A stretch of 64,000 nucleotides of DNA, from the IMG/VR virus record IMGVR_UViG_3300045256_000188, positions 19,426 through 83,425 of that record; one strand, written 5' to 3'. The DNA is from a virus. Below are positions 11,456 to 45,900 of the stretch, piece after piece. The stretch's first letter is position 1. Each line of letters opens with the position of its first letter. A program made the position numbers and the translations under genes. A model generated the notes under the pieces. The model was not told the origin of the DNA, made no database searches, and saw only the letters and a program-made list of their open reading frames with translations.

Positions 11456-12040
11456 ATGCGTCGTCGCGTACTCCCAGGAGCGATCGGGGCCGGACTTCTC
11501 GGCGGTCTGCTGTGGTGGCTCACCGGCAGCCAACCGCCTCCGCCCGCTCCACAACCGCCACCAAACCCGGCTCCCACACCGGCCCCAACCAACACCATCT
11601 CCCAATTACTCGACGCCCACAATCGCTACCGTGCCCAGCACAACGTCCCCGCCTTAGCCCTCAACGCCAAGCTCACCGCTGCCGCCCAGAAGCATGCACG
11701 GTGGATGGCCAACAACCGAAGAATGAGCCACACCGGAGTCGGCGGCTCATCCTTCGCCGACCGCATCAGGGCGGAGGGCTACGACTTCCGGATGGGAGGA
11801 GAGAACATCGCGGCTGGCTATAAGTCCGTCGATGCTGCCATGACCGGCTGGATGAACAGTCCAGGCCACCGGGCCAACATCCTAAACCCAAACTATAAGG
11901 AGGTCGGGCTGGGGGTCGTCAACAACTACTGGTGTACCGTATTCGCTACCCCATTCACCAGCACCAACGCCGTCACCAACTCGATCATCGAACTCCCCGG
12001 TGGCATCCGAGCCGGTGACCTCGACGAATTCGGGCCTTAA
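11456..12040 (+). CDS. CAP/SCP-domain secreted or membrane-anchored protein
   Basis: A 194-residue protein on the strand opposite to the packaging genes. Residues ~8-24 are a hydrophobic segment (signal peptide or anchor) after MRRR; ~26-45 is proline-rich. The rest is a CAP domain: LLDAHNRYRAQH, MSHTG, GENIAAG, MNSPGHRANIL and EVGLGVV are the usual bacterial CAP blocks. CAP domains of bacterial SCP-like proteins are extracellular; activity here is unknown. The gene lies between the portal and terminase starts/ends and overlaps the terminase end by 4 nt (convergent). A role at the cell surface or on the virion is inference; it looks like an acquired gene. Confidence 0.8.
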   Translation: MRRRVLPGAIGAGLLGGLLWWLTGSQPPPPAPQPPPNPAPTPAPTNTISQLLDAHNRYRAQHNVPALALNAKLTAAAQKHARWMANNRRMSHTGVGGSSFADRIRAEGYDFRMGGENIAAGYKSVDAAMTGWMNSPGHRANILNPNYKEVGLGVVNNYWCTVFATPFTSTNAVTNSIIELPGGIRAGDLDEFGP

Positions 12041-20060: not shown

Positions 20061-21049
20061 GACTCGTCCTCGTTGTCGTCCGCGCTACGTCGCCATCCGG
20101 CCCGCTGCCCATCAGCACCACGGTTCAGATTCGAGTCAGTCAGTTCCATACTCCGCAATTTCGTCAACTGGATGAAGTTGGTGACCGTAGCCCGGGATAG
20201 CCCGGTGCGGTCTACCAGCTTACCAATGATCCCATCGTGCGGCCGGTCGTCGTTCTCGGCAATCCAGGCGATTGCTTCGATGATCTGCAGGTGATCGTTG
20301 TGGTACTTCCACAATTCGCGGGCTTCGTTGAGGAACCTCTCCATCACCCCCGACACCGGCCGGCTCTTGGTCCCAAGGTGGTTAACGTAAGAGCCGGAGT
20401 TCTTGCGGTCCCGGCCCTCTTTCTTGATATAGGCCAAGATTACCGTTCGGGCGATCTGGCTCCACATGTTGAAGACTTTGGATATGCCGCGGAACAGTAC
20501 CGTCTCAGAACCACCATATCTGCCCTGCTTGGGCTCGACGCCCGGTGATGCATTCAGGAGGGCTTGGCAATGTGGGCAGCGACGGCCGCGGTGGAGACTG
20601 ATAACCTCCTCAATCGTCTTGATACCATACTCCTTGTCGCCCGGTTGGTAGAGCAGGGAGTCGGAGGGGCGTTCTGGGTTGAAGCAAACCCGACAGTGTG
20701 GGCGTGCTCGATACTTGTAGAGGGTCCGCTCGATTTGAACCCAGGCAGTCTGGAGAAGGTCACCGAAAGCGGACTCTTCTTGGCCTGGGTAGATGGTGTG
20801 GAGGCCCTGCTTGCGGATTATTTGGCGGATGAGTTCGGTGGCGTGACTCATGATCTGGTCACGCAGAACTACCTTCGTGCAACCCGTCCAAATGTATAGC
20901 GTTAGCTGCCATTCGACTTCTTCATTAATGAAATACAATTTACGTTGCGGCGTCACCACCGGTGGCGGGCACGGGGGGACTTGGCTGCTTGGAGGCTGGG
21001 ACAAGCAGCTTTCGTCGGATTTTGAATCTACTTTTAACGAGTTCTGCAC
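20057..21049 (-). CDS. Late-transcription sigma factor, gp55-like
   Basis: Resembles T4 gp55 and related phage late sigma factors that direct host RNA polymerase to late promoters. After a proline-rich 35-residue start, it has RKLYFINEEVEW, then LRDQIMSHATELIRQIIR, then GDLLQTAWVQIERTLYKY, which corresponds to sigma region 2. A four-Cys insertion (CRVC ... CPHC, residues ~119-160) suggests a zinc site. A C-terminal segment, IIGKLVDRTGLSRATVTNFI, is a helix-turn-helix that could act as region 4. The longest frame overlaps the helicase end by 110 nt; a GTG at 20959 gives a protein starting just before RKLYF and is plausible. I could not locate a convincing TATAAATA late promoter by eye. Confidence 0.75.
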   Translation of the reverse strand: MQNSLKVDSKSDESCLSQPPSSQVPPCPPPVVTPQRKLYFINEEVEWQLTLYIWTGCTKVVLRDQIMSHATELIRQIIRKQGLHTIYPGQEESAFGDLLQTAWVQIERTLYKYRARPHCRVCFNPERPSDSLLYQPGDKEYGIKTIEEVISLHRGRRCPHCQALLNASPGVEPKQGRYGGSETVLFRGISKVFNMWSQIARTVILAYIKKEGRDRKNSGSYVNHLGTKSRPVSGVMERFLNEARELWKYHNDHLQIIEAIAWIAENDDRPHDGIIGKLVDRTGLSRATVTNFIQLTKLRSMELTDSNLNRGADGQRAGWRRSADDNEDES

Positions 21050-24000
21050 CGTCCACGCTCCCGCCAGGAAATACGACCTTGGTAGGGTAGCCGGCTTGGA
21101 CTATCACCTTGAGCCGGGCCTTCGAGTGATCGTATAGGTACCGGTTGCAGCGGAAGAAGAAGTCGTAAATCTTGCTTTCGCCGCGACGGTTCCGCCGAAG
21201 GGCACGGCCGATCTTTTGAATGAACTCCGATTGGAGCTTACCCCCCGACGCGATTATCAGGTTCTCGCAACCTCCCTGCAGGTCAAGACCCCGGTTAATA
21301 ATCTTCCCGCCGATAAGTACATCCAGTTCCCGCCGTTCGAACGCACGCAATGCCTCATCACGTTTACGCTGCGGCGTCTTCCCGAAGATGAACTTCACCC
21401 TGAGTCCGGTCAGATTCACAGCCTCTTCCAACTTGAAACCCAACGCCTCCCGGTCCACCAGCACTAGTGTCCCATCCATCGGGTCCCGTTTACACCGCTT
21501 GCACAACTTCGCCACGATCGTGTGGAAGCGGACACTCTCAGTAATGTGCTCGTTGTAGGCGATGTCGTAAGCCGACGCCTCGTTGATATCCCCATCCAGC
21601 CCGCAGGCCAACATGTGGTATTCGCAAGGAATGATCCGGCCCAGCTTCGTCAGGTTCTCCCGCGTCTCCTGGAAAATCACACTGCCCAAGTGCTCCTGCA
21701 CCACCATCGCCTCGACCGGCTTGGCCGGATCGAACGGAGTACCAGAGTTGTGAACCAGCACACCATCAGCATAGAAGTTTGAGGCCGGATTGACGTCCAG
21801 AACGTCATACATTCTGACCTCTTTGCCGGTATCGACGACTTCAATCACCGACGTTTTAGCTTTTCGACAGAGATAAACGGGAACACCTTTCCATGAGGAC
21901 AAGCTGTGATCGTCAAAAGAGAACGGGATAAAAGCCGCATTGGGTATCACTACGTCATCACCGTTCGATGCGACGACTGTCCTGCAGTATACCAGTGCCC
22001 GGTGGACCGCCCAACCTATCAGATCCGGACTTTTGGTAGGCATCTGTGTCCGCAGTGCATCCAGAAATTGCCACACATCGTTGAGAGAAGAAGACGGGCT
22101 ATGGAGGCCACAAAAGAAAAGATGTTGCGAGATCACGGCGTGGAAAACTGGTTTTCCGTCGCAGAGCACCAGAAAACCGCGAAGTCCACTAGGCAACGGC
22201 TGTACGGCAGTGAGTCGTTCAACAATCAAAAACGGCGTAGGGAGACCTGCCTCGGCAGATACGGCGTTGACCACCCGATGAAACTGAAGGGCATGGTCCA
22301 GAGAGTCCAAAACACTATGATGGAGCGTTACGGCTGTCCCATCATCTTCCAAGCACCCGATAAGATCCAACGACGATTGAAGATATTCAAGCAGCGTTTC
22401 GGCGGCAACCCCGTCAACGACCCTTCCGTTCGACAGAAAATTAGCCGCACTCTCGCTGAAGGATACAGCAGTGGCAGACTCAAATTCCCGACCAAATTCA
22501 AGACCGGATACTACCTCGACCGGCATGGGCGGTTGTTGTATTACGCCTCGTCTTATGAACTCCTGTTTCTCCAGTTCCTCGACGGGCACGGCATTGCGTT
22601 CACCACGCAAGAACCCAGAATCGGCTATGAATTCGAGGGGAGACGCCAATACGTGATCGATTTCTGTACCGACGAGTGCTTGATCGAGGTAGGACCGCGT
22701 AAACTCAAGGCCCGGCCACGCAATGTGGCCAAGATCCACGCCGGGGTCGCTTTTGCCCAGAAAGTCGGTAAGCGATATAAGCTTCTCGACGAGACGATCA
22801 TCTTGAGTCTGGATAATTTGACCTGGGCTGATATCTTGAACTCTGATGTAGCGTCCCAGATCGTCAGCGATAAGGTGATCACCTGACGCCCCTAGCCGCG
22901 TACCGTCGCTGAATAAGACCTCCCATAACCTCTTAAAGCCGCTGTCAACAACTGTCCCGACCCCAAAAACATCCCTACCATTCGATCGGCACAGGACGTC
23001 AACCACCTGACCGTCGCCGAACGAACTCAACTTTCTACATCCATCTTTAGTGACCACAGACACATCGCCTGGCAAGCAGAACCCATACCGCCGCCGGCCT
23101 CTGAAATAGAAGCGGAACAGGTTCTTCCACGGATCGGACACAGCCTTGTCGCAATTATGAACTAACAAGCCGTTCGCTTCAAAACAAGCTGGACCGGGGA
23201 CAGTCAAATCAATCAAGCGTGCGGGATCAGCCAACTCGACGGTTTTAACTATTTCAACCGCATAATCACAGAGACTGGTGTCCACTCGTTTAGAAGCAAG
23301 GCGATTTTGCAAATTCCGCACATAACCACGCCATAGATCATCACCTCGCTGGCGACGATCCCACGCCGTCTTGCTGTCTATGCCAGCGAACGCCGCCACT
23401 TTGGCGTCACTAACACCGAATAAATTTTTGGCAGCAGCATAATTGGCCGGTACCACCGCGATCAAATTGTCAATTGATTTTTGCCATTTAACCAACCTTA
23501 TAAGACTAATTTTGTTACGATTGCCAGGAGACACACCGGTAGTGTTGGTCCCTAGGATTCTAGCCAGTTTGACTGGGGGCAGACCAGCTTCCCGCCAGTG
23601 AGCCAACCATGGTTGCGGATCAATTCGTCGTTCACTGTCCACAACCGAAGAGAGCACGGGTTTGCTCTGTTTTCGGCTGAAACCAAAACCAACCAGTCGA
23701 TGCCACTTCCTAAAATTTTCGCCAGATACGGCAACCCGCCACAGTTTAGCGTGTTGTGCACGATCACGCTTATTACTAATGAACACACTAGAGCCAATTC
23801 CTAAATAAGCCATGAGTTTCTGAGCGAAATTCATCAATGCCCAATCGATTGAGTCACAAGTCACGGAGCTTGGATAAGACGACCCTTTTGCATCAAATAA
23901 TCCACGCAATAAGCTAGCCGCAGCGTCGGTGCTGGGAACCACAAATCGTGGATCGATCGACCCCATCTTACGTCCGGGTTTGAACCCAAGCTGTTTCAAC

Positions 24001-25289
24001 CATGCTGTTAAGGCTGACGACTTGATTATAAACACAAAATCGCCACGGCGATTGAAACCAGATTTAAATGACCCAGACCAGGCGACAGCCATCGCCACAC
24101 CAACAGCATGCCAGTCGTCAACATCTTTCCGAACTGCGAAGCGTACTCGCTCATTATCCAAAAAATGGCCATCTCCGATAAACAGACCGAGGTGGTACCA
24201 AGAGTCTATGATTGTGGTGGTAGCAATCTCCGGGCGAGGGGCCAACAGCAAGTCGCCGGGGACGAGATCGCAAGCATGACGATAGTCGCATCGGCCATTA
24301 ACTAAAACAGCACATGGATGGTTGTGCGAAGTCCGCAAAATTATACCAGTCGTGGTTGTAACGTTGACAGTAGCTTCTACCTTTTCGGACCACCCACTAA
24401 TTCGATAATACTTATCATTGACGCGAGCCATTACAACTTGACCAGTCTGCAAACGTTCTACCACCACTGCGGCTCGTTCGAGACCTCCGTCGGTGACTAT
24501 TACAGTGTCTTCGTGAACGCACTCGTCCACAATAATCATTTCGGCCTTGCGGACGTACTCGATCAGCACCTTAGCATTCTTGCGACGGGTCTTGAACGCC
24601 TTGAACTTCTTATCCCACTGTTCCATCCGTTTCTGGAACGAGATATCGCCTTCCCCCATCTTCTGGGTAGGGACCTCCGGTGGCTTGGTAGGCAATGTAA
24701 GTGACTGGATAGAACCGATGACCACCATCTGGCCATTGGGCCGCTTCCCAGCGTAGAACATGCCGACTTCTTCGGCCACATCCCGCAGTTCCAGCCGCTC
24801 CTTGAGTTGCTTTACTACAATCACTTGGTCAGCGAGGATGATCGTCGGGCAAGGAATAGCCTTGCAAGTGCCGGCGATGAGTTCGCCCTTACCGCCGCCG
24901 GTTGGTATGTCGATAATACCGCACTCGACCCTGACGGTCTTTCGGATGCAGTCGATCTGGTACTGCTCCAGCTTGATGCCGGGCAGGAAATTCTCGTCGA
25001 TGGTATCAGGATCGACTGTTTGGTAATTCCAAGCTGGGCGAAGATCGCGAACTGAGAGGGGTAGGTTGTGCTTGTTGCAAACACCACGGAGCATCGACAG
25101 GAATGGGCGGGCCATTCGCCGCCGGCCGCGATTGTACTTGCGGAACACCCCATCCCAATTCGCCATCTGGGTTGGGTCAACATAACGGCCCGGTCGACTA
25201 ACACTGAACTCTTCCCAAAGGATGTTCTCCTCGGCGTCCGTGATGTTGTCGAAGTAAATCCACTGGTTGTCGTTGAGTATGGCGATCAC
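20940..25289 (-). CDS. UvsW-like superfamily 2 helicase with two inteins
   Basis: ATP-dependent DNA helicase of the T4 UvsW type (recombination, fork repair, R-loop removal). The 1449-residue precursor minus inteins (456 and 444) gives about 549 residues (UvsW: 503). Exteins are 1-256, 713-737 and 1182-1449. Motif I: DIPTGGGKGELIAG (~128-141). Motif II: EMIIVDE joined after splicing to CDKA, a DEAD-box variant DECD. Motif III region: YGF joined to SGTPFD. Motifs V and VI: NRGLDLQG and QKIGRALRR. The start is GTG with AGAGG eight bases upstream. The C-terminal ~40 residues are disordered. Confidence 0.9.
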   Translation of the reverse strand: MIAILNDNQWIYFDNITDAEENILWEEFSVSRPGRYVDPTQMANWDGVFRKYNRGRRRMARPFLSMLRGVCNKHNLPLSVRDLRPAWNYQTVDPDTIDENFLPGIKLEQYQIDCIRKTVRVECGIIDIPTGGGKGELIAGTCKAIPCPTIILADQVIVVKQLKERLELRDVAEEVGMFYAGKRPNGQMVVIGSIQSLTLPTKPPEVPTQKMGEGDISFQKRMEQWDKKFKAFKTRRKNAKVLIEYVRKAEMIIVDECVHEDTVIVTDGGLERAAVVVERLQTGQVVMARVNDKYYRISGWSEKVEATVNVTTTTGIILRTSHNHPCAVLVNGRCDYRHACDLVPGDLLLAPRPEIATTTIIDSWYHLGLFIGDGHFLDNERVRFAVRKDVDDWHAVGVAMAVAWSGSFKSGFNRRGDFVFIIKSSALTAWLKQLGFKPGRKMGSIDPRFVVPSTDAAASLLRGLFDAKGSSYPSSVTCDSIDWALMNFAQKLMAYLGIGSSVFISNKRDRAQHAKLWRVAVSGENFRKWHRLVGFGFSRKQSKPVLSSVVDSERRIDPQPWLAHWREAGLPPVKLARILGTNTTGVSPGNRNKISLIRLVKWQKSIDNLIAVVPANYAAAKNLFGVSDAKVAAFAGIDSKTAWDRRQRGDDLWRGYVRNLQNRLASKRVDTSLCDYAVEIVKTVELADPARLIDLTVPGPACFEANGLLVHNCDKAVSDPWKNLFRFYFRGRRRYGFCLPGDVSVVTKDGCRKLSSFGDGQVVDVLCRSNGRDVFGVGTVVDSGFKRLWEVLFSDGTRLGASGDHLIADDLGRYIRVQDISPGQIIQTQDDRLVEKLISLTDFLGKSDPGVDLGHIAWPGLEFTRSYLDQALVGTEIDHVLASPLEFIADSGFLRGERNAVPVEELEKQEFIRRGVIQQPPMPVEVVSGLEFGREFESATAVSFSESAANFLSNGRVVDGVAAETLLEYLQSSLDLIGCLEDDGTAVTLHHSVLDSLDHALQFHRVVNAVSAEAGLPTPFLIVERLTAVQPLPSGLRGFLVLCDGKPVFHAVISQHLFFCGLHSPSSSLNDVWQFLDALRTQMPTKSPDLIGWAVHRALVYCRTVVASNGDDVVIPNAAFIPFSFDDHSLSSWKGVPVYLCRKAKTSVIEVVDTGKEVRMYDVLDVNPASNFYADGVLVHNSGTPFDPAKPVEAMVVQEHLGSVIFQETRENLTKLGRIIPCEYHMLACGLDGDINEASAYDIAYNEHITESVRFHTIVAKLCKRCKRDPMDGTLVLVDREALGFKLEEAVNLTGLRVKFIFGKTPQRKRDEALRAFERRELDVLIGGKIINRGLDLQGGCENLIIASGGKLQSEFIQKIGRALRRNRRGESKIYDFFFRCNRYLYDHSKARLKVIVQAGYPTKVVFPGGSVDGAELVKSRFKIRRKLLVPASKQPSPPVPATGGDAAT
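21894..21908 (+). promoter_or_regulatory. Ribosome binding site and GTG start of the antisense endonuclease
   Basis: The sequence tgaggacaagctgtg combines an in-frame TGA, a GAGGA Shine-Dalgarno core and a GTG start at six-base spacing. It decides the start of the antisense gene and argues that it is translated. Confidence 0.75.
21906..22886 (+). CDS. Homing endonuclease (Vsr/PD-(D/E)XK-like) encoded antisense inside an intein
   Basis: A 326-residue ORF opposite to the helicase. GTG start with GAGGA six bases upstream and an in-frame TGA at 21894-21896, so this is the first possible start. Residues 22-51 form a four-Cys zinc ribbon (CDDC ... CPQC). Residues ~75-150 carry repeated YG-type modules (HGVENWFS, LYGSESFN, RYGVDHPM, RYGCPIIF) typical of DNA-binding regions in phage homing endonucleases. 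Residues ~215-265 match a very-short-patch-repair/PD-(D/E)XK nuclease core: SYELLFLQFL, YVIDF and LIEVGP give Glu218, Asp252 and Glu261. All Leu and Ser codons avoid TTA, CTA and TCA, as needed to keep the antisense intein frame open. Family assignment by eye. Confidence 0.85.
   Translation: MIVKRERDKSRIGYHYVITVRCDDCPAVYQCPVDRPTYQIRTFGRHLCPQCIQKLPHIVERRRRAMEATKEKMLRDHGVENWFSVAEHQKTAKSTRQRLYGSESFNNQKRRRETCLGRYGVDHPMKLKGMVQRVQNTMMERYGCPIIFQAPDKIQRRLKIFKQRFGGNPVNDPSVRQKISRTLAEGYSSGRLKFPTKFKTGYYLDRHGRLLYYASSYELLFLQFLDGHGIAFTTQEPRIGYEFEGRRQYVIDFCTDECLIEVGPRKLKARPRNVAKIHAGVAFAQKVGKRYKLLDETIILSLDNLTWADILNSDVASQIVSDKVIT
23154..24521 (-). mobile_element. Helicase intein 1, LAGLIDADG type (456 aa)
   Basis: Precursor residues 257-712. 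Starts CVHEDTVIVTDGG, ends ANGLLVHN before Cys+1. LAGLIDADG motifs HLGLFIGDG and LLRGLFDAKG (second motif with Lys after Ala). A long helical segment precedes block F. Insertion splits the DEAD-type box between Asp-Glu and Cys-Asp. Confidence 0.92.
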
Positions 25290-25510: not shown

Positions 25511-28500
25511 CTACGTGGGCATGGCGCACTTGTCGTTGTCGCAGAACTGCGAACCCACCGCCTCGTACAGATACTCCGAGTAATCGGCGTTACCGAGCTT
25601 GGAGTTGTACTCCTCAACTTCCGCGGCCTCACACGGAATGTATGGGGCCTGGGCGTAGCCATGGTCTACGTGCGGCAGGAAACTGATGCCCTTGAGTTGG
25701 TCCTCAAAAGCTTCCAGCACGCGGGCAATGTCCGCGGCCTCGTGCGGCTTAAACTTCACGGTACACGACACTTGGTTATCGGCCCAATACCGCTGGTAAT
25801 CCACGGCGTTCTGCATCTGTTCCCAGATGCTAACTTCGCCGACTGGCCGGACGCCCGATTCGCCCTTGACGCCGAAGTAGACCACCACGGTCCGGTCCGG
25901 GTCAGACAGCACCGGCTCGACCTTGAAACCCGCCTCGCGGAGGATCTTGACCAGGACCGAGTCCTTGGCGACCCGCACCAACCGCCAGTAGGTGCCGGCT
26001 TCGGGATGGTGGATGCCGGGGGAGACGCCCACGACCAGACTGACGGTGTTATGGCTTTTCACCGCCCCCGCATAGTACCAGTGACTATTATCGACCTCGA
26101 CATCATATGTGCGTTGCCGTTCGCCTTGGGTTACAGCCACCACTTTGCCAAATAATCTGTTCTTCTTGCCAACTTGGTGTGTCCATGGTAAATCGGCAAC
26201 GGCGTCTTCCACACACTTATTGCAGTGTTTAGCGAACAACGCGAAGCGGTCGTCCACGGTGTGTTTCATCCCAGACAAGGACCACATTCTTCGCACGCCT
26301 TGATGATTGCGTCCCTTAGCGTTAAGCGACCTACTGAAAACAAGACCAACGGCCAACGCCACATCCTGAACGTGCCGAGCAAATAAATCCCCAGACATTG
26401 AAATGATTGGATACTGATCAGACGCCCGCCGACCAATGCAGCCATCGGAATCACACAGCCCAGCCAGGAAGGCCAAGATGTCTTCGTAGCTTGAACTGCG
26501 TATGCATTTCGGGATCAAATCAGCATTGCTCTTGATTTTCAGACAGTCGTTAATCAAGAGCCAGTGCCACAGCAACTTGGAACCAACTTCGAGAACGAAA
26601 GCATCACGACCTTGGGAAGCCCGTGTGATTTTCGTCTCGACTCCGAATTGCTCCAGAATAACCCTTTGGGCTTTGTGTAAATTAGACAGATTTTGATCGG
26701 TGTACCGCATCCTGAATTTCAGGAACGATTGTGAACCGTCGCCCCACATGTATCCGAGCAACCACGCTAGATCCGGGTTCATGTGCGTTGGTTGCTCAAT
26801 GGCTGCGACCGGACCACGCATCGACACGTGCCTAGATGATAGTTTGCAGAGGGCAGCATGGTTGCGACACGAATAAATACCAGGAGTCAGTTGCACGATG
26901 TCGCCAGGCAACAGTTCGTCGGCACGTTTCCAGTCGTTGACCTGGCTTAATTTCCGCTTCTTACCTCGGTCGTATCGTGACACTACGAACCATTGATGGT
27001 TTGGAGTCGACTCAAGCATGAAATTGTAGTTGAGTTTGACCTTCACGACATCAGATAAGCCGTTGTCATAGGTCTTGGTGATGCGATCACCGATTGCCGT
27101 GGCAACTCCAGCCATCATCGACCGACTAGAATCGATTCCATCTCCCTGAACAGCGATCACTTCTTTGGTCATATCACACCACCGTTCCCCATCCTGATGG
27201 CCAGACATCTCGAACAGCTCTTCGAGGGTCAGCAGACCGGCGGATGTTGTCGTCAGTGCATGCCAGGGCCGACAGCCGCTAGGCTTGACCGACGTGACCT
27301 TGATCGACTTCGGAACGCACATCCATTCCGAGTAGATCTGGTCCCAACGGCGGATCTCATTGTAGCCGGCATCGCAGAAGTCCTTGAGGACCGTGCGACG
27401 ACCAAACTTGGCGAACGCTTCCACGATCCCCGACTGGCTCAGGCCGATCCGCCGGTTGCGGAGGGTGACCTGATTCGTCCGGCGATTGTGGGTTGGCAGC
27501 AGGGTGACGGTCTTGGCGTACAGGTAGGCGAACTTGAGGGTCCGCATGTAGTCGTTGGCATCATCGTGGTTCGATGGGAACGTCTCCACGAGATTACATT
27601 GGTAAGTGATGACGTTCCCGAATACACCCATGTGGTTGTCCGGCTCATCAAAGCAATAAGTAGTATGCAGACCAGGAAGTTTCTCGACGGCAACCACATA
27701 CTGCTTTTGGGCGACATCGATTCCGCGATTCGAGTATCGTGGATTCGGCTTAATCCGGCTACCGATCTTAGTTGCTCGCTTCACCCTGGTTGGGATTTCT
27801 CCGCACTCGAAGCTCGGAATCTGAATGTACCAGAGGTCGTTCTGTCGCACCCCCTTGTTCGTCACTTGCCCAGCCGGGTGATAAAAATTGACGGAGGCGT
27901 GGTTGATCCCAGCCCTGCGTAGGAGTAGTTGGGCATCACGAATCTTGGCTTCCAAACCGTAGATCCGATAGCTGTGAGTATTAGCCTGCTTACACACGCA
28001 ACCGTCCGACTCGATCCAACCGGCGATGAACTCCAAGATGCTCTCACGATCGAAAGCCATCACCCACGCCGGTAAGCCGGCGTTCTTGTCGCGAAGTTCT
28101 CTGAGCTGATCGGAAGTCATACAGTCTCGAAGATTGATGCGATTATACGGGTCGCCGTAACCATCCTTATTCTGTGGTTTGTACCAACGACCTCCCATGT
28201 CCAGCGTCTTGAGTTTGGCCTTTTGGCCACAGGCGACGGCCATGGGGCGGGTATAGCGTGGCCGATTCACGAGATCACCATCGCCAGTAGCATAGCCCAT
28301 TTCAAAAGCGTTAGAGACTTTGTTACCAGCGACCCGGCCCAGAGAGAAACCCAGCACGCGGTCTCCAGGCTGTAATTGTAGGGTTCCAACACGTCGATAG
28401 ACCCGTTTTCCAACAGGCCGCACCGACCATCCGTGATTGCCGGTAGCATCCAGATAAGAACCGTCGGAGAAGTGAACTCGATATAGTTCGCGGTCGCTCC

Positions 28501-31500
28501 CAGTGACGCGGGGCGTGACTTTCGACCAACTATCGCCGTTCCAGACTTCGACAATCTTACCAACCACGGCGTCGATCCGGCGGATGCCATCCCGGAGCTG
28601 TAATTTAGTGTCACCACTGACACACAGCTCGTACGACTCCAGGGACTGCTCCATGCATTGACCAATTATTATCCCATTGACAACAACTTTATTATGCCCC
28701 GGTTCGGTAAGACAGAAAGTCTCCTCCTCACCGACACGCTCAACAGACATGACCATCGCAAACAGTTTCGGTAAAGAGTTGCGGCTACCATGGTGGTCGG
28801 CCAACCAAGATGTAGCCTTTTCGGTTTTCGAAGCCTGTATAAAACCGATCTGATTCATGAACAGCTGAACGTTAGTACGACCGGAGATTATTAGTTCGTG
28901 GCCACCATTTCCATCGTTCATAAGTCTGGTGGTAACCGCTTGTCTTCGCAGGACGCTAGAATTGATCCCAAACTGCCTAAGCAACAGTTGACATTCATTC
29001 AAGAATGACTTCGATTTCTGGCCGGCCCTGATAGAGATTGATAGTTTGTAGTTGCTAATCTGTACACCACCGTCCGCACTAAAGAAGCCCCTAAGGAAAG
29101 CTGCCACTGTTTCGCGAGTGCCACCCCAAATAGATGTAGGGACCCTGTGCTTGTCGCCTGGAACAACACCGTCACTATTAAGCAATCGACCCAGGACATT
29201 GGACCTGATCGATTTCTGCCGATGGCTGAAATGCTCCTGACGGCGTTCACTGCCATCGAAATCGGGAGACTGATCACTGGATTGATTGTGCCGATGATAG
29301 ACATCCAATAGATTACGGCGCAACACCGGTAAGACCTCTTCGATATCGTCCTGATGACAGGCCACAAACGCCGTCACCTGACCATCACGCTGTTGTGACA
29401 GTGAGCCATCTCCGATCACCCAGCCAGCCAATTCAGCATAGTGCGGATCGCTGAATTGCCCGAATGCTGGCACGAAATGAAGTGGCAAACGGTGACCCGG
29501 AACCAATTCACATAGCCGTACCCTGTGCTCAACCATATCATCATCCAAGACTACGAAGACATGATCAGCGGTGGCGTCGATATACTGACCATTACTAAGC
29601 ATCACGCGGAATATTTCAGCACGTTCGCTAGTTCGATAAACATTGGTAGCAGTAACCACACCAGCATGGTTTACTACTCTGAGTGTGCCATGCTTGTCAA
29701 CGGATGGTTGACCGCTATACTCCTGAAACCCACCACTTACCCACAGTTCGCGCATCGTGCGATATCCGTTCTCGGTCAACAACCTCATGGCTCCCGCAAA
29801 ACAAGGGTTCGCCCCCATCACGCGGCCATCCACACCGGGCTTGAGGCCGTCCACCATCCGCCCGTAGTCGCGGACGTTGTTGAGCCAGATGATACCCGGC
29901 TCGCCGTTGACGCCGATCTGCTGACCGACAGGACGGTAATCCATGCCGAGCTTGGCGAAGATCGAGTTGTTGGATGCCCAGCGGTGGTGGTTAAGGGCGT
30001 TCCAGGTCTGGATTGCCGGCAGCAACCGCTCATCCGGGATGTCCTTACCGGCGAAGTCGTCCTTGGTGGCCGAGTTCCGCTTGGCGGCGTAAATCTTGCC
30101 CGTAACTTCGAACCACGCATCCATGTCCTGCGGCAGCAGGGTCTTGGTCGGGTTCTTCATCGAGCAGTACGCTTCGTCGTCGGCGTCACCGAAGGCGATT
30201 TCGGCGGTGTTATGCACCAAACGCCCCTCCGCCACGAACTCGCTGCGGTCCGGCACGGACAGATCGTAGGTCTCGACGGTCACTCCCTCGTCCACGACTG
30301 AGGTCACCGCCACCGGAATCAGACCCTTTGTCTTCAGGCCCAGCGTAGTAGCACTTGAATAGGTCATCTGTTCCTGTTGCGGCGTCCAGGTTCGGCCGTA
30401 GTCAGCATACATCACACTCTTGCTGACCATCTCCGTCGGGTAGCCGAAATCGTGGCCGCTGGCCCGTCCCATCTCGCGAAGCTGCTTGACCGCATGGGGC
30501 TGGACATGCTGGCGGAAACCGGCGATGGCATACTCGCCCAGCAACGAGATCTCCCATTTGGCCTGGCCAGCAGCGTCGGCCTTCTTACGGAGCCGCAATT
30601 TGGTCGGGATACCAAGGCTTGAGTATACGGCCTGCACCTGCCGTAGGAAGTCACGATATACGCTAGTCACCAGGGTGGTTGGACGGTTCTTGGTGGAACC
30701 GTCGCTGTCCAGCAGCCCGGCGAGGTAGGCAGATCTGATCTCCGGGATCCCCATGCGGATACAGGCCGGTACGTCAAGGGGCTTACGGGCCTGCTTAACG
30801 TGAGTGTACAAATAGTGGGCCAGTCGCTTGGAAATGACACGGATCTTGCGACAATTATCTTGGCTGCGTTGCTCGCCGGGGGCGTCGAAACCGAAGGCCG
30901 CAAATCCGGCGTTCACTTTGGCGGTGATACCATCATGGTATTCGTCTCGATTTACGGGGATCGTCACCGAGGCTCCATGGTACTTGCGGCCCTTGTGGGC
31001 ACGCCCAGGATACACGTAGCCGCCGCCATGTACGGCCCCCAGGAACCACGCCACGTCCGTGGTCAGACCGGGGACGATCAGGGTTGACCCGCGGCCGGAT
31101 AGGTCACTGTAGCCGGGCAGGACGGTATCGGTACCGGGGATGACGGCATCCACGAACACCATTCGGTCACCGGCCCGGAGTTCGTGGGCACGCTTCCACT
31201 CGTATTGGTCCAGGCCGCTCATCACGGCGATCCGGTGCCTGTCGGTGCAGCGGAACGGCCCCATCAGACTGTTGATGGTCACCACCCGCTGAACCCCCTG
31301 GGCCACGTTTTCGGCGACCGGGTAATAGCCGTCGGCGGTGAGGACTAAATCACCGACCTGTACCTGTTCGATCGGGACCAACCCGCGTTTGAGGTGAACC
31401 AGGGTGCCCTTGGGCAAGCACCGACGGACATTCCCAGCAACCACGCAACGACCAATGTAGTTCATCAAGTCGGTGATGTCCACCGAATCGAGGGTCTGGC

Positions 31501-34432
31501 CGATCTTCCGGTCCAGGTGGGCTCGAATGAGGACGTGCAGTTCGATCAGGATACTAGGGCCGCTGGCCTTGCCGCCAAAGCCCTTGATGTCCGACCCTTC
31601 CTTTCGAATCTGGGAATAGTCGAACTCGACGATGCCTTCCTTGTAGGCCACGGTGTAGGAGCGGATCAGGTGGCGTACCGAGTCAACCCAGCCCTCGCGG
31701 GAGTCTGGGATGACAAACGGCCGAATGATGCTTGGATTGGGCTGGTAGATGTTGATCTTGCCAGCACCCTTGGTATCAAACCCGACGCCCACGCCGAGCA
31801 TCGACATGTCCATGAGGAAGCAGAACGGCTCAGCCGGGTCTGACTCCGACAGATCGGAGGTCGAGACGAAGCCGCAGTTCCGGGAATGGATACCGTCAGC
31901 GAGAGCAAATGAGTGGTAATCTGGAACCTGTGGGCAGAAGACTTCTTCGTACCGGTCGGTTGGCTCCACTGACTTGACGCGCCAGTGATATACAGGCCGC
32001 GTCCGGTGACTGGACCAGGACTCGAATCGACGGCGATGTTCTTTCAGCAAGAAGAACTCAGGCCGTAAATGAGACCCCATAAGCCCAATCTCATAACTGT
32101 CGAAGGTCTTAACTTCCCCATCATGCTTGACAACTTGATGGCTCTTGATGATAGAATATGTGCCAATACCAAGAACGGCACACACGTCACGCACGACTAG
32201 AAGATTGGACTTCTTACTGCTGCTAATCCTGATACAGTTGCCTTTCTTGTTGATCTTCCCGTCAGCAGCGAAGTAACCGGCGAGCCAGCCATAGAGATAA
32301 CTGCTCGACTCACGCAGAGACGGTGGTTCTTTGAAGAATCGCGGAAGATCCGCGACTCGCACCGCCCCACCCTCACACTTGTCGGGATGATCGGTAGTCG
32401 GGCAAGAGTTGAAGTACTTGAGCAGTTCCCTATCCTTGTGGCCACACAGATAAATAGATGCTCCGCTGTGACCAGCTGCCGGGGTATTGCCGTCACCATA
32501 CGTGATCCCGTGGGCGATGCCAAAGTTACTTGGCCGAAGTTCACCACCGATGCCACGTCCAAACAGGTATCGCAGGCAATCAACGCCGGGTTTGAGGTCC
32601 TTAGTAGTGCAGATGCGATAAGGAGCCGTTCTCCGCCTCTTGGCTGTGATGACAGCCACACTCACACCATCGGACTGACTGGCATGGTTTGCCGGTGCGA
32701 ACCGGCGATCACGTGCGTACCACTCATGATCAGCGGTAGCGTAGATGATCTTCTCTGAACCAGAACGCTCAAGAGTGATTTTCCATAGTTGTTGCACCCC
32801 AAACGATTTGATAGGTGCTTCAACCCAGCGTCCACCCTCGGTCAGTAGCGTCTGGACGGTGCCAGCCAATTCACCTATGGGCTTGATGCCGTCGCGAGTA
32901 ACAATCTCCTCTTCGGCCGGGAGACAGTTCCCGGTCAAGATGTTGTCTTCGAGGACGAAACATCCCTTGCCAGGAACTGTGGCACAATATACTTCCTCTT
33001 CCCGATCAGTTTCTTCGACCGATTCCACGATCCATTTTTCGCGATGGCTACCGCCGCGTTCCTTCCAGGCCAGGAATCGCTGGCGGTGATGAGACAGCAG
33101 GAAGAAGTCTTCGGTCAGGTGCTCCAATTTCAGGTACACCCGGTATCCAACGAATTCGCGGCGGTCACCGCGGTGGTTCACCACATGCATGCCCTGTTGT
33201 ACTAGACCGGTGCCGATACCGAGAACAGCACAGACCTCACGTACCAGTTCCATGTTCTCCTGTTTCGAGGAATGGATAAACGCCGTACATGCCTTCTTAT
33301 TGATAGAGCCGTCAGCAGCGAAATATCCGGCCAGCCAACCGTACAAGTACGCCTTACACTCACGCAGATCCGGCGGCGACTTATAGTGGCGTGGCAGATC
33401 AGCCACCCGGATCGCGCCCTCCTTGCCCTTGCGTGGGTCGAAACTCGTCGGCGATTTCGAGAAGAACTCTAGTAATTCAAAGTTCTTCTTGCCGCAGAGA
33501 TAGAGATAGCTGCCGGTGCTCTTATCCTTGTGACCGAGCGTCCCATCGCCAAAGCAGATGCCATGGGCGATGCCGAACTGCGACGGTCGAACGCTCTGAA
33601 CGCCTTGCCCATAGACCATCTGAAGCTCGTGCCCGATCTCCAGATTGCGTGTAAGCGTTTCCTGGAACGGCCCCTTACGCCGGATGTGACGAAGCCGTTC
33701 GTCCCGGTCCACTCCGGCCGGGATTCGATTCAGTGCTGGTCTAGCGAACCAGCGGTGATCAGGGGTGGCGTAGATGACCTTGCGAGTCCTGAACCGCTTC
33801 AGGACTATTTTCATCAGTTTCTGTCTGCCGAAACTGCGGATTGGTGCATCTACCCACTCACCGTTGCTAGTCATCAACATCTGAGTGGTACCGGCCAGCT
33901 CCCCAATGGGCTTGATCCCATCTCTGGTGATGATCCGTGTGTTGAATTCCAGACAGTTGTTCAAGGCGGCGGAGCCCCGTTCCCACATGAACTTGGTGCC
34001 CATCATCCAGAGCCCGCGGCCCGGCGGCAGGAACTTGAAGTCCCACATCCGCTGAAACATCTCCTGGGCACTGGCCTGGGCTTTTTCAGCGGTCCAGGGG
34101 ATGTGCAGGTGATTGCAGTGTCGCCGCTGGATCTCGTAGCAGCCTTCAACGACCCGCTGGACGACGTCGAGGAACGTCTCCTTGCTGCCGTCCTCCTTGA
34201 GGCGGGAGTAGGTGCGGTAGAAGACGAATTCACCGAGTCCGCTGAAGCCGAATTTGGGCTTCTTCCCCTTGTACCCCTTGAGGAATGCCGGATCGAGGGT
34301 GAAATGAGCTTCTCCCTGTCCGCCGCCGAGATACTTCTCGGCGATGTTATAGATCTCGGCTTGCGGAGACAGGGGGATAGCGGGGCCATTCCCCACGGCC
34401 GCTGGCCGCAGGTTCAAGAGGATAACAGACAC
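25511..34432 (-). CDS. nrdJ: Class II (cobalamin-dependent) ribonucleotide reductase with six inteins
   Basis: Adenosylcobalamin-dependent ribonucleoside reductase, making dNTPs for phage replication without a separate radical subunit. The precursor from GTG 34432 is 2973 residues; removing inteins of 343, 350, 404, 382, 342 and 409 leaves about 743, matching monomeric RTPR (L. leichmannii enzyme, 739). Extein signatures after splicing: AALNN-CGFVST, GNVRR-TAEIAFG, GANP-CMEQSLESYEL-CNLVET, VKPSG-TVSLVVG. The cysteines after the first, third and fourth junctions correspond to Cys119, Cys408 (thiyl radical) and Cys419 in RTPR numbering. The GTG start has GGAGAG upstream and overlaps the preceding gene by 19 nt; the frame stays open upstream to 34642 but that part looks non-coding. 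Confidence 0.92.
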   Translation of the reverse strand: MSVILLNLRPAAVGNGPAIPLSPQAEIYNIAEKYLGGGQGEAHFTLDPAFLKGYKGKKPKFGFSGLGEFVFYRTYSRLKEDGSKETFLDVVQRVVEGCYEIQRRHCNHLHIPWTAEKAQASAQEMFQRMWDFKFLPPGRGLWMMGTKFMWERGSAALNNCLEFNTRIITRDGIKPIGELAGTTQMLMTSNGEWVDAPIRSFGRQKLMKIVLKRFRTRKVIYATPDHRWFARPALNRIPAGVDRDERLRHIRRKGPFQETLTRNLEIGHELQMVYGQGVQSVRPSQFGIAHGICFGDGTLGHKDKSTGSYLYLCGKKNFELLEFFSKSPTSFDPRKGKEGAIRVADLPRHYKSPPDLRECKAYLYGWLAGYFAADGSINKKACTAFIHSSKQENMELVREVCAVLGIGTGLVQQGMHVVNHRGDRREFVGYRVYLKLEHLTEDFFLLSHHRQRFLAWKERGGSHREKWIVESVEETDREEEVYCATVPGKGCFVLEDNILTGNCLPAEEEIVTRDGIKPIGELAGTVQTLLTEGGRWVEAPIKSFGVQQLWKITLERSGSEKIIYATADHEWYARDRRFAPANHASQSDGVSVAVITAKRRRTAPYRICTTKDLKPGVDCLRYLFGRGIGGELRPSNFGIAHGITYGDGNTPAAGHSGASIYLCGHKDRELLKYFNSCPTTDHPDKCEGGAVRVADLPRFFKEPPSLRESSSYLYGWLAGYFAADGKINKKGNCIRISSSKKSNLLVVRDVCAVLGIGTYSIIKSHQVVKHDGEVKTFDSYEIGLMGSHLRPEFFLLKEHRRRFESWSSHRTRPVYHWRVKSVEPTDRYEEVFCPQVPDYHSFALADGIHSRNCGFVSTSDLSESDPAEPFCFLMDMSMLGVGVGFDTKGAGKINIYQPNPSIIRPFVIPDSREGWVDSVRHLIRSYTVAYKEGIVEFDYSQIRKEGSDIKGFGGKASGPSILIELHVLIRAHLDRKIGQTLDSVDITDLMNYIGRCVVAGNVRRCLPKGTLVHLKRGLVPIEQVQVGDLVLTADGYYPVAENVAQGVQRVVTINSLMGPFRCTDRHRIAVMSGLDQYEWKRAHELRAGDRMVFVDAVIPGTDTVLPGYSDLSGRGSTLIVPGLTTDVAWFLGAVHGGGYVYPGRAHKGRKYHGASVTIPVNRDEYHDGITAKVNAGFAAFGFDAPGEQRSQDNCRKIRVISKRLAHYLYTHVKQARKPLDVPACIRMGIPEIRSAYLAGLLDSDGSTKNRPTTLVTSVYRDFLRQVQAVYSSLGIPTKLRLRKKADAAGQAKWEISLLGEYAIAGFRQHVQPHAVKQLREMGRASGHDFGYPTEMVSKSVMYADYGRTWTPQQEQMTYSSATTLGLKTKGLIPVAVTSVVDEGVTVETYDLSVPDRSEFVAEGRLVHNTAEIAFGDADDEAYCSMKNPTKTLLPQDMDAWFEVTGKIYAAKRNSATKDDFAGKDIPDERLLPAIQTWNALNHHRWASNNSIFAKLGMDYRPVGQQIGVNGEPGIIWLNNVRDYGRMVDGLKPGVDGRVMGANPCFAGAMRLLTENGYRTMRELWVSGGFQEYSGQPSVDKHGTLRVVNHAGVVTATNVYRTSERAEIFRVMLSNGQYIDATADHVFVVLDDDMVEHRVRLCELVPGHRLPLHFVPAFGQFSDPHYAELAGWVIGDGSLSQQRDGQVTAFVACHQDDIEEVLPVLRRNLLDVYHRHNQSSDQSPDFDGSERRQEHFSHRQKSIRSNVLGRLLNSDGVVPGDKHRVPTSIWGGTRETVAAFLRGFFSADGGVQISNYKLSISIRAGQKSKSFLNECQLLLRQFGINSSVLRRQAVTTRLMNDGNGGHELIISGRTNVQLFMNQIGFIQASKTEKATSWLADHHGSRNSLPKLFAMVMSVERVGEEETFCLTEPGHNKVVVNGIIIGQCMEQSLESYELCVSGDTKLQLRDGIRRIDAVVGKIVEVWNGDSWSKVTPRVTGSDRELYRVHFSDGSYLDATGNHGWSVRPVGKRVYRRVGTLQLQPGDRVLGFSLGRVAGNKVSNAFEMGYATGDGDLVNRPRYTRPMAVACGQKAKLKTLDMGGRWYKPQNKDGYGDPYNRINLRDCMTSDQLRELRDKNAGLPAWVMAFDRESILEFIAGWIESDGCVCKQANTHSYRIYGLEAKIRDAQLLLRRAGINHASVNFYHPAGQVTNKGVRQNDLWYIQIPSFECGEIPTRVKRATKIGSRIKPNPRYSNRGIDVAQKQYVVAVEKLPGLHTTYCFDEPDNHMGVFGNVITYQCNLVETFPSNHDDANDYMRTLKFAYLYAKTVTLLPTHNRRTNQVTLRNRRIGLSQSGIVEAFAKFGRRTVLKDFCDAGYNEIRRWDQIYSEWMCVPKSIKVTSVKPSGCRPWHALTTTSAGLLTLEELFEMSGHQDGERWCDMTKEVIAVQGDGIDSSRSMMAGVATAIGDRITKTYDNGLSDVVKVKLNYNFMLESTPNHQWFVVSRYDRGKKRKLSQVNDWKRADELLPGDIVQLTPGIYSCRNHAALCKLSSRHVSMRGPVAAIEQPTHMNPDLAWLLGYMWGDGSQSFLKFRMRYTDQNLSNLHKAQRVILEQFGVETKITRASQGRDAFVLEVGSKLLWHWLLINDCLKIKSNADLIPKCIRSSSYEDILAFLAGLCDSDGCIGRRASDQYPIISMSGDLFARHVQDVALAVGLVFSRSLNAKGRNHQGVRRMWSLSGMKHTVDDRFALFAKHCNKCVEDAVADLPWTHQVGKKNRLFGKVVAVTQGERQRTYDVEVDNSHWYYAGAVKSHNTVSLVVGVSPGIHHPEAGTYWRLVRVAKDSVLVKILREAGFKVEPVLSDPDRTVVVYFGVKGESGVRPVGEVSIWEQMQNAVDYQRYWADNQVSCTVKFKPHEAADIARVLEAFEDQLKGISFLPHVDHGYAQAPYIPCEAAEVEEYNSKLGNADYSEYLYEAVGSQFCDNDKCAMPT
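26048..27274 (-). mobile_element. Reductase intein F, LAGLIDADG type (409 aa)
   Basis: Starts CRPWHALTTTSAG, ends AGAVKSHN before Thr+1. LAGLIDADG motifs LLGYMWGDGS and FLAGLCDSDG; block F TYDVEVDNSHWYY. It splits VKPSG from TVSLVVGVSPG, a conserved substrate/phosphate-binding loop of class II reductases. Confidence 0.92.
27599..28624 (-). mobile_element. Reductase intein E, LAGLIDADG type, C-terminal Gln (342 aa)
   Basis: Starts CVSGDTKLQLRDG, ends GVFGNVITYQ before Cys+1, so the last residue is Gln, not Asn. LAGLIDADG motifs FEMGYATGDG and FIAGWIESDG. It sits directly before the cysteine equivalent to RTPR Cys419 and just 11 extein residues after intein D. Confidence 0.9.
28658..29803 (-). 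mobile_element. Reductase intein D, LAGLIDADG type, C-terminal Gln (382 aa)
   Basis: Starts CFAGAMRLLTENG, ends VVVNGIIIGQ before Cys+1; again Gln in place of Asn and Gly as penultimate residue. LAGLIDADG motifs LAGWVIGDGS and FLRGFFSADGG. It splits GANP from CMEQSL at the thiyl-radical cysteine. Confidence 0.9.
30209..31420 (-). mobile_element. Reductase intein C, LAGLIDADG type (404 aa)
   Basis: Starts CLPKGTLVHLKRG, ends AEGRLVHN before Thr+1. Motifs FLGAVHGGGY (degenerate) and YLAGLLDSDG. Block F TYDLSVPDRSEF. It separates AGNVRR from TAEIAFG. Confidence 0.9.
31877..32926 (-). mobile_element. Reductase intein B, second of a back-to-back pair (350 aa)
   Basis: Starts CLPAEEEIVTRDGIKPIGEL immediately after the last residue of intein A, and ends ADGIHSRN before Cys+1 (CGFVST). 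LAGLIDADG motifs GIAHGITYGDG and YGWLAGYFAADG. It shares long collinear similarity with intein A, including TRDGIKPIGELAGT. Its first Cys doubles as the +1 residue of intein A. Confidence 0.9.
32927..33955 (-). mobile_element. Reductase intein A, first of a back-to-back pair (343 aa)
   Basis: Starts CLEFNTRIITRDGIKPIGEL after extein GSAALNN, and ends LEDNILTGN directly followed by intein B. LAGLIDADG motifs GIAHGICFGDG and YGWLAGYFAADG. Block B YATPDHRWF. The pair occupies the site of the cysteine equivalent to RTPR Cys119. Confidence 0.9.
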
Positions 34433-42919: not shown

Positions 42920-45900
42920 TTACCTAGCCCATGAGTTAAGTTCGCTACCAAGACCATGGTCACCCTTGTTCATCCCAGGCAAGTAAGCCTGCAGGATGGC
43001 GACGATCTCAGACAGTTCACCCTTACCGCCGGCCGTCATCTCTCCGAGCTTCTCGTCAATAGCTACCAGGGTTTCGCTCACCTTCACCAGTATCTTCGTG
43101 CTCTCATCCTGTGCCTCACGTGCCTCCCCATCGGTTCTATCCATGACCTGGACAGTACTGATAGCCTCAGATCGCACCGTCTCCTCGATCCCGGCCTCCC
43201 CCGCCGCTCGGATCGCCGGCATCGCCTTGGTTACTACCGCCGTCTCGATCCGGCTGGACGCATTCTCCAGTAGATTAGCGTAGTTGTCTAGCATATCGGC
43301 CAGTTTGCCGACGTCATCAGTCAAGTTCAACCCCTGACCAAACGCGGTAATCGTCTCGGTCAGTTCCTTGAGGATAGCGTTCAGCCGCTCCGCCGGTCCC
43401 TGGAAGGCCCGGACACCCTCATCGAGCTTGGAGGCGGCGACCGTTAGGTCGCTGCCCAACTTCTCGATGTCTGGGATTGCTCCCAGAGCCTCGTCCGCCA
43501 TCTCCCGCAGACCCTTCAGCGGGGTATTGTTGAGGGCCTGGAACGAGTCAGCCAGAAGCGACATCGCCGCCCCGACCTTCTCCACCCGGTCAATGGTCTT
43601 GGAGAAGCGGAAGACCGCAAACTCCAGCACCATCAGCCCGCCGTAGATCGCCCAGGCCGCCGGCCTCATCATGTTCCCAGCGATCATTAACATCACCGCC
43701 GAATCGATCATCCATCCGGCCGCGATCGACAGCACAATCGCCCCGAAGGTGAGGCCCCCGCTCGCGTAGATCGCCATATCCCCAGCCACAGCCAGGGTGA
43801 ACATAGCGTCCATGATATTGAGGGCCGCCATCGGGAGCAGGACACCCGCCACCACCAACTGGATGGCCGCCACGAAGATATTCCTCGCAGCGATCGACAG
43901 GAAGATCGACCCGACCAGGATGATGGCCATCGCACCCAGGTAGAGGACCGATGTGTAGAGGATAACCATCGAAGCCTCGGCCAGAGCCAGGGCCGCCGGT
44001 AGCAGCACGAACGAGGCGAGCAGCAGGACAGAGGACCCCGACAAGAGCAGGAGGCCGGCGGACAGCGACATCTCCGCGGCCGGCAGCAGGAACTGCATCG
44101 CCGTCAGCAGGAGGTTGGCAGCCGGAGCCATCACCACGCCACCGACCAGGAGCAGAACCGCAGCAACCAGCAGGAACTGGACACCCCACAGAATCATCGC
44201 GATGCCCGTCGCCAGGGGGACACCGGAGATCGCCATGAGCAGGGCCGCCGGCAGCAGCTTCAGTGCCGCTTCCAGAAGGATCGTCGCCCCAATAAGGACC
44301 TGCACCGAAGCCGTCAGCATCACCGAGGCCAGTGACCCCAGCATCCCCACCGCCATCTGCAGGATGATCGTCCCGAACAGCAGCGGGAACACCCCCTCCT
44401 GCAGAGCACGCCCAACGATCGAGATGTAGATGCAACCCAACACCAGTTGGAGCGAAGCAATCCGGAGCATGAGTCCGGCCGGGAACATGGCGTTAGCCGC
44501 CTCTGTCACCTTCGGCATCAACCCCTTCAGGACGTCAAGACTGGAGTCGATCTGCCCGGCCGAGTCGCCCAGCAGCGACGACGCCGTGACGAGAGCCTGA
44601 GCCCCCGCCAGCATCATCATCCCGCCGATGCCGATCCTCATCCCGATTCCGAGCATCTCGTTCGAAGAGTCCGACAGGAAAGCCAGACCGATCGCAAGCA
44701 TGATCCCCGCCGCGACCAGGGCCACGCCACCGATCGAGAGGAGGATACCTGCCACCACCATGAAGACCCCGGCCCCCGCCAGCATAATCGAGCCAAGCAG
44801 AATCTGGGCAGCACCCTCGATGTAGCCGGTGCCGGCCTGGATGAACAGCAACACCGCCTGGACCAAGAGTTGTCCGGCCTGGAGCAGAAGGTAGGATCCG
44901 ATGAACATCATCACGCCACCGATCATCATCATGACGCCCGTCGTTATGAGGGCAACGGCCCCAGCCTTCATCAGGGAAGCACCGATAGCCAGGGCGATCC
45001 CAACCCCGAACATCATCGGAGTGGACAGCCCCAGCAGCAGGAGTCCAGCGTAGAGGGCGGCACCGCCGATCATGATGCCGACACCGCCGATCATGATGGC
45101 GACACCGGCGAAGAGCAGGAGCCCCGCCCCGACCGCCATCAGAGCCCCACTCGCTAGCAATGCCACGCCGGCTACGAAAAGTCCTACGGCAACCGCGGCG
45201 ATCACCAGGACCGCCGCCGCCAGGAGAATCCCACCGATGAGGAGGGCGACACCCGCGGCGGCGAACAGGGCTGCCGCCGCCACGAGCTTGATGGCCCCCT
45301 GGAGTATTGCCCCGGCGATAGCTGGGATCGCGTCCGCCCCGATCATCTTAATGGCCGCCGCCATCAAGTAGAAGGCCGCTGCGGTGATGAGGGCGGCCAC
45401 TGCGATGACCACCATCCCGATAGCTAGGGCGTAGATGCCGGGGATGGCCATCATAGCCAGGGCACCCAGAGCCACGATCGCCAGACCCAGCACGAAGAAC
45501 TTGGCGATAAGCTCGAAGGTTAGGACCGTAGACAGGATCTGGAAACCCTGTGCCGCCATGAAGATCCCGACGCCCATCATCAGGGCGGCCAGACCTACCA
45601 CGAAGATCGCGATGGCCAGGACAATCAGGCCCAGAGCCACCGGACCCTGGACCAGCATGGCGAGCCCGACGAGCACCAGCCCCAGGAGCCCAATTGCGAT
45701 AATCATCCCGATCAAGGCGGGGATTGCCACCCAGCCCATCTCGGCGACGATCCGGACACCCATCGCGAAGAAGTAGGCACCGATACCGGCCATCATGAGG
45801 GCCAGACCGACTGCGAGCAACGGCCCGACCACGCTCTTGACCGAGTTGCCCAGGGCCGCCAGACCCTGCCCGATCGAGGACAGGATGATGACGATGGCCT

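Follow-up and report, generated by a model that had tools for sequence, protein, structure and literature searches.

Inteins located at the active sites of their host proteins have been described (PMC5050341, PMC5874633, PMC8772380), and an intein before a catalytic cysteine of a reductase is not new in itself, because the annotated Thermobifida phage P318 has one. The P318 reductase (MK240575, AZU97367.1) is a class II enzyme with an intein resembling inteins a and b of this study at LFN^CWHS, the equivalent of Cys119 in the ribonucleoside triphosphate reductase RTPR, but this is its only intein, and none interrupts the Cys408 and Cys419 equivalents (NPCGEIPLEEWEAC). In the class Ia NrdA of a Staphylococcus phage (MZ643272), an intein lies between NL and CSEI, directly before a cysteine that we take, by its motif, to be the class I radical cysteine; this protein differs from ours in belonging to class I and in having one intein, only 24% identical to intein b. 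The intein of Aquifex aeolicus NrdB is also positioned within a reductase active-site motif, between the metal ligands Glu228 and His231 with ligation at Leu229-Cys230, although it is a single intein in a class I small subunit (PMC8772380). With respect to number, Trichodesmium likewise has several inteins in one reductase gene; four are reported, the highest number that we found cited for a reductase, compared with six in the present gene (PMC1635734).

Here, we analyzed a stretch of 64,000 nucleotides (the window) from a metagenomic contig, the virus record IMGVR_UViG_3300045256_000188 of 83,425 bases. The minus strand contains an intact reductase ORF of 2,973 aa (34432-25511) inside an enclosing frame (34642-25511) of 3,043 codons without a stop, and GGAGAG is located just upstream of its probable start. 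The precursor consists of six exteins and six LAGLIDADG intein-like insertions (Table 1). Two of them, a and b, stand in direct tandem at the Cys119 site, so the six inteins occupy five sites. As originally predicted, intein sequence accounts for 75.0% of the precursor (2,230 aa), and the computed spliced product of 743 aa aligns with its orthologues, and with the RTPR structure 1L1L, without gaps at the junctions.

Table 1. Exteins, inteins and junction features of the reductase gene, in order of translation (window coordinates).
Feature	Position	Strand	Description
extein 1	33956..34432	-	spliced residues 1-159; probable start GTG 34432; end ...SAALNN
intein a	32927..33955	-	343 aa, CLEFNTR...NILTGN; first of tandem, Cys119 site
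a/b junction	32924..32929	-	AAC|TGT: final Asn of a followed by Cys1 of b
intein b	31877..32926	-	350 aa, CLPAEEE...GIHSRN; second of tandem, directly after a
codon of extein Cys160	31874..31876	-	equivalent of RTPR Cys119; +1 residue of intein b
extein 2	31421..31876	-	spliced residues 160-311
intein c	30209..31420	-	404 aa, NVRR^[CLPK...LVHN]^TAEIAFG; +1 Thr312, equivalent of RTPR Ser320
extein 3	29804..30208	-	spliced residues 312-446
intein d	28658..29803	-	382 aa, GANP^[CFAG...IIGQ]^CMEQ; ends in Gln
extein 4	28625..28657	-	11 residues, CMEQSLESYEL; Cys447, equivalent of RTPR Cys408 (thiyl radical site); Glu449, equivalent of Glu410
intein e	27599..28624	-	342 aa, SYEL^[CVSG...ITYQ]^CNLVET; ends in Gln
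extein 5	27275..27598	-	spliced residues 458-565; Cys458, equivalent of RTPR Cys419
intein f	26048..27274	-	409 aa, KPSG^[CRPW...KSHN]^TVSLVVG; +1 Thr566, equivalent of RTPR Thr552
extein 6	25511..26047	-	spliced residues 566-743 and stop; CDNDKC (Cys734, Cys739)

The sole PDB sequence match of the spliced protein was 1L1L, a ribonucleoside triphosphate reductase (E 7.8e-89), on which the alignment placed the intein +1 residues at C119 (a and b), S320 (c), C408 (d), C419 (e) and T552 (f). The cysteines of CGFVST, CMEQ and CNLVET (spliced residues 160, 447 and 458) had been assigned to RTPR Cys119, Cys408 and Cys419, and the alignment to 1L1L confirmed all three. The spacing of 11 between Cys447 and Cys458 is that of 408 to 419 in 1L1L, Glu449 aligns with Glu410, the N406-P-C408-x-E410 motif is present as NPCME at 445-449, and the C-terminal Cys pair (CDNDKC, 734-739) is invariant in 11/11 exteins. 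The spliced protein scored 113.2 bits against RNR_Alpha PF17975 (cut-off 26.4) and 47.1 bits against the class II insertion domain RNR-II_ins_dom PF21995 (cut-off 27). Its score of 316.3 bits against the RTPR equivalog TIGR02505 was under the curated cut-off of 340.05, as was that of the intein-less relative L001 (332.5 bits), so we named the protein RTPR-like and did not file it as a TIGR02505 equivalog. When the genome was searched with the Pfam barrel domain PF02867, nothing scored above the cut-off, because the reductase gene is interrupted, and megablast of isolate phages gave no match. Judged from these sequence comparisons, the enzyme appears to be an RTPR-like monomeric, B12-type class II reductase of a diverged phage branch.

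In nine viral loci, the reductase is 70-74% identical to that of the window along most of the sequence; no intein is present in eight of these (L001-L007, L009), and further reductase matches in L010 and L011 are cut by contig ends. Eleven exteins align gap-free across the five junctions of the window, and the exact splice boundaries are directly supported because the intein-less orthologues align without junction gaps. In accordance with the original prediction, an intein ends directly before each catalytic cysteine and two further inteins interrupt TAEIAFG and TVSLVVG. At the empty Cys119 site, the DNA of the relatives reads ...AACAAC|TGC....

All six inteins start with Cys1 and end with Asn (a, b, c, f) or Gln (d, e), and the +1 residue is Cys after a, b, d and e and Thr after c and f. 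Read from the sequence, the block B Thr-x-x-His motifs are TPDH, TADH, TDRH, TADH, TGNH and TPNH from a to f, and TxxH was invariant across 34 rows of the a/b family. Inteins a and b both keep Cys1, TxxH, the family block F [YF]C, the terminal Asn and the LAGLIDADG motifs. The AlphaFold2 model of intein a (pLDDT 91.6) had the PI-SceI intein 1ef0 as its best PDB match by Foldseek (E 3.6e-13), and that of intein b (pLDDT 89.2) showed the same order of elements as a. In the case of c-f, the Hint/LAGLIDADG class was assigned from LAGLIDADG_3 matches (that of e below the cut-off) and same-site alleles only. Against Pfam Intein_splicing, five of the six inteins scored under the cut-off and e had no match. 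The penultimate His is absent in a (Gly), b (Arg), d (Gly) and e (Tyr); penultimate Gly is common within the a/b family, and splicing without this His has been published (Chen, Benner and Perler 2000, as cited in PMC8772380). The GC3 of the extein is 0.82, in contrast with 0.50-0.75 for the inteins (a, 0.66; b, 0.56), which is compatible with separate and fairly recent acquisition of the inteins.

To see how the five sites are occupied elsewhere, we surveyed the relatives for alleles, and single inteins were found at each of the three cysteines, as the original prediction had proposed checking. A single Cys119-site intein is present in L012-L016, in the distant NrdJ genes L018, L042-L044, L056 and L126-L128, and in a Bradymonadaceae MAG (L155). 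Those of L012-L016 (IMG/VR) and L155 share the site ALNN^C[GA]F and the lineage of a and b, but there is always one intein at the Cys119 site; the only further site occupied is c in L012-L014 and d in L016. Alleles at the c site (Ser320) are 66-74% identical (L012-L014, L083, L087, L088, L091, L092), those at the d site (Cys408) about 47% (L016, L105, L120, L125, L129), and the e site (Cys419) has one allele, in L008, at 63%; none was found at the f site (Thr552) among the surveyed relatives. Each catalytic-cysteine site is thus occupied elsewhere, one or two at a time, and all three only in the window. The survey counted 72 intein-free loci, an upper limit because inteins were missed in L015, L094 and, one, in L016, and some contigs were counted twice. 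In L131 (9001-11772), a related NrdJ is interrupted by an insert of about 770 bp around extein positions 258-267, possibly a further intein site. In Roseobacter phage CRP-7 (L154, 1582-4200), nrdJ is present as two ORFs with another ORF between the halves, and the first half ends ...NQFC-stop, at the Cys419 equivalent.

By alignment, then, all three catalytic cysteines are the predicted +1 splice nucleophiles of inteins. The original prediction had emphasized this double role, which is chemically right; however, it follows from the rule for the +1 residue together with homing to conserved motifs, and it is seen singly in relatives and in annotated phages. Five random sites would cover the three catalytic cysteines with a chance of about 8e-4 over the 43 invariant Cys/Ser/Thr, or 9e-5 over all 89, in a model that ignores homing to conserved DNA. 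These low figures are not evidence of design, because conserved DNA is what homing endonucleases choose as their target and only Cys, Ser or Thr can serve as the +1 residue (PMC4031507). The gene concentrates a general rule in one enzyme, namely that inteins land before catalytic or metal-binding cysteines. The a/b family follows this rule as well: its bacterial inteins (L155-L217) lie mostly in DnaG-like (H/Y/F^CFGC, zinc-type CxxC) and RtcB-like (N/S^CHHN) genes, named by motif only, and end in LTGN directly before metal- or catalysis-type cysteines.

The most unusual feature, which the original prediction did not bring out, is the tandem pair at the Cys119 site. Between ALNN and CGFVST lie two complete inteins with zero extein residues between them, a ending GGGAAC and b beginning TGTCTC, so that Cys1 of b must double as the +1 nucleophile of a. 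The two are 49% identical in protein over the full length and 52% in DNA, with a longest shared word of 14 bp, and the three junctions (outer 5', a/b and outer 3') have AACTG in common. Inteins at one site are normally taken as mutually exclusive, since an occupied site no longer offers the homing target. Of about 110 a/b-like inteins (45 viral loci, 63 bacterial and a few from the reductase survey), collected non-exhaustively by degenerate patterns, only the window carries two adjacent full-length copies. Junction scans that covered few spellings with VHN^CLxGDT gave one viral match, in which extein VHN precedes a single intein, and zero matches in bacterial and archaeal genomes. A scan with LTGN^CF[AS]G gave 16 stretches and no tandem, the sole a/b-like one being a single intein before extein CFAG. 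The latter (L134, 1374 bp) places its a/b-like intein at LMN^CFAGPR, before a conserved cysteine, in what appears to be a reductase of another type. We found no second example of a head-to-tail intein pair at one site in the genomes surveyed. A literature search likewise found no paper on naturally tandem inteins; it covered few subscription papers and is weak evidence of absence. As an allelic head-to-tail pair, a and b show that a second intein can accumulate at an occupied site.

Considering the tandem together with the five sites, we regard it as very probable, on sequence grounds, that a phage RTPR-like reductase has been colonized by six homing inteins at five sites and is restored by protein splicing, with the Cys119 pair most likely derived from joined alleles. 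The trees bear on the last part. The Cys119-site inteins of this NrdJ group, seven in all (a, b and L012-L016), formed one clade (99/94 and 97/92 in two trees), within which b joined L012-L014 and a stood apart in three trees (97/95; 99/95; 87/93). Because of this grouping, stacking of two alleles is favored, and the trees lean to it over local duplication without settling the origin. A duplication of one intein in place, with later divergence of the copies, is a possible but doubtful origin. It would account for the homology of a and b along their whole length and for their membership in one Cys119-site lineage with L012-L016 and L155, and the AU test does not reject a and b as a sister pair (p 0.226 with the 99/95 tree and 0.056 with the 87/93 tree). 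Duplication fits poorly, however, with the three trees in which b joins the single inteins of L012-L014 and leaves a out, with an identity of b to them (56-57%) higher than that to a, and with the unequal GC3 of a and b. No close relatives of intein b alone or of intein f were found in the viral contigs searched. For the stacking of alleles, the most likely route would be recombination at AACTG between an a-bearing and a b-bearing genome, joining two allelic inteins of the NrdJ-Cys119 lineage into an in-frame tandem. We also considered whether the homing site had been re-targeted at the junction 3' of a, and do not favor this. By eye, the 15 bases upstream agree with the empty site in the last 3-4 only, and ordinary re-homing is less likely because the end of a does not reproduce the upstream half of that site. 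It is hardly credible that a chimeric assembly or gene decay accounts for the tandem or for the six-intein frame as a whole, although the source is a metagenomic contig and the tandem was observed once. The enclosing frame has zero stops, conservation extends to every catalytic residue and to the C-terminal Cys pair, and alleles of c, d and e sit at identical positions elsewhere. A common a/b word of at most 14 bp could not mislead an assembler, and a k-mer assembler could not have joined the alleles, given how little sequence the a/b junction has in common with the outer junctions of either one. We therefore rejected an assembly chimera.

The gene anatomy, the mapping of the sites, the empty sites of orthologues, the splicing residues and the intein models are observed; that the inteins splice, in which order, that they home and how the tandem arose we infer, with splicing modeled on the class 1 mechanism. 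LAGLIDADG homing endonucleases would target conserved DNA and thereby put each site on a strictly conserved motif, and since the +1 residue must be Cys, Ser or Thr, the three active-site cysteines would be natural landing places. Each catalytic thiol would act first as the +1 nucleophile, through a branched ester and then an S-to-N shift, and afterwards as a reductase thiol. In the tandem, a would splice with ...ALNN as its N-extein and Cys1 of b as +1, whereas b would splice with a, or ALNN once a is gone, as its N-extein and the catalytic Cys119 equivalent as +1. Cys1 of b would hence serve both as the +1 nucleophile for a and as the N-terminal nucleophile for b's own splicing. Alternatively, the N-terminal site of a may pair with the C-terminal site of b, and both would leave as one 693-aa piece; such one-step excision is conceivable because both inner junctions look alike. 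Either order and the joint removal would give the same ALNN-CGFVST product, so the tandem would make no difference to the enzyme as long as one of these routes works. The absolute dependence of dNTP synthesis on six splicing events, stated in the original prediction, is not supported, as a host reductase may suffice and a and b could leave as one unit. The pair is a natural case for testing whether neighboring splicing elements work one after the other, compete or mispair, and the intein set may supply fast split-intein parts.

It is improbable, in our estimation, that the double intein acts as a relay or a 693-aa unit and forms, with the other two cysteine sites, an ordered and possibly redox-gated activation switch during infection. 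We consider quite improbable the related proposal that the inteins are a gate, in which the catalytic thiols are buried or mis-spaced until splicing and the phage times or redox-controls the reductase. All three catalytic cysteines are indeed among the +1 residues, control by redox state or metals has been reported for other inteins (PMC6195587, PMC7360933), and the Aquifex NrdB intein improves iron loading (PMC8772380). Nevertheless, a gate is not needed for the role of the enzyme, because close relatives with reductases 70-74% identical have no intein, and single sites have been gained or lost independently among relatives, as expected for mobile elements.

The same virus carries further insertions and ORFs of note. 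In the part of the contig that lies to the left of the window, a 587-aa ORF (L132, 15322-17085, minus strand), read by eye, combines a LAGLIDADG-like part (LGFMLADG, VRGYFDGDG) with a DNA-methylase-like C-terminal part. Within the window, the ORF at 42920-47782 (minus strand) encodes 1,620 aa with a very long hydrophobic middle and a weak Pfam match only, possibly a tape-measure protein. A portal-like (gp20) ORF (6612-11372, minus strand; spliced length 671) has three intein-like insertions at 9960-11108 (HNH motif), 9156-9590 (mini-intein, 145 aa) and 7920-9080 (LAGLIDADG). The ORF at 12037-17709 (minus strand; spliced length 669) resembles a terminase large subunit by eye, its Pfam matches being intein domains only; it contains inteins at 16507-17523, 14854-16161 and 13477-14814, the second and third separated by 13 extein residues. 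In the UvsW-like helicase (20940-25289, minus strand; spliced length 549), the two inteins, at VDE^C (23154-24521) and GF^SGTP (21747-23078), are both on helicase motifs. Together with the reductase, the window contains 14 intein candidates in four genes.
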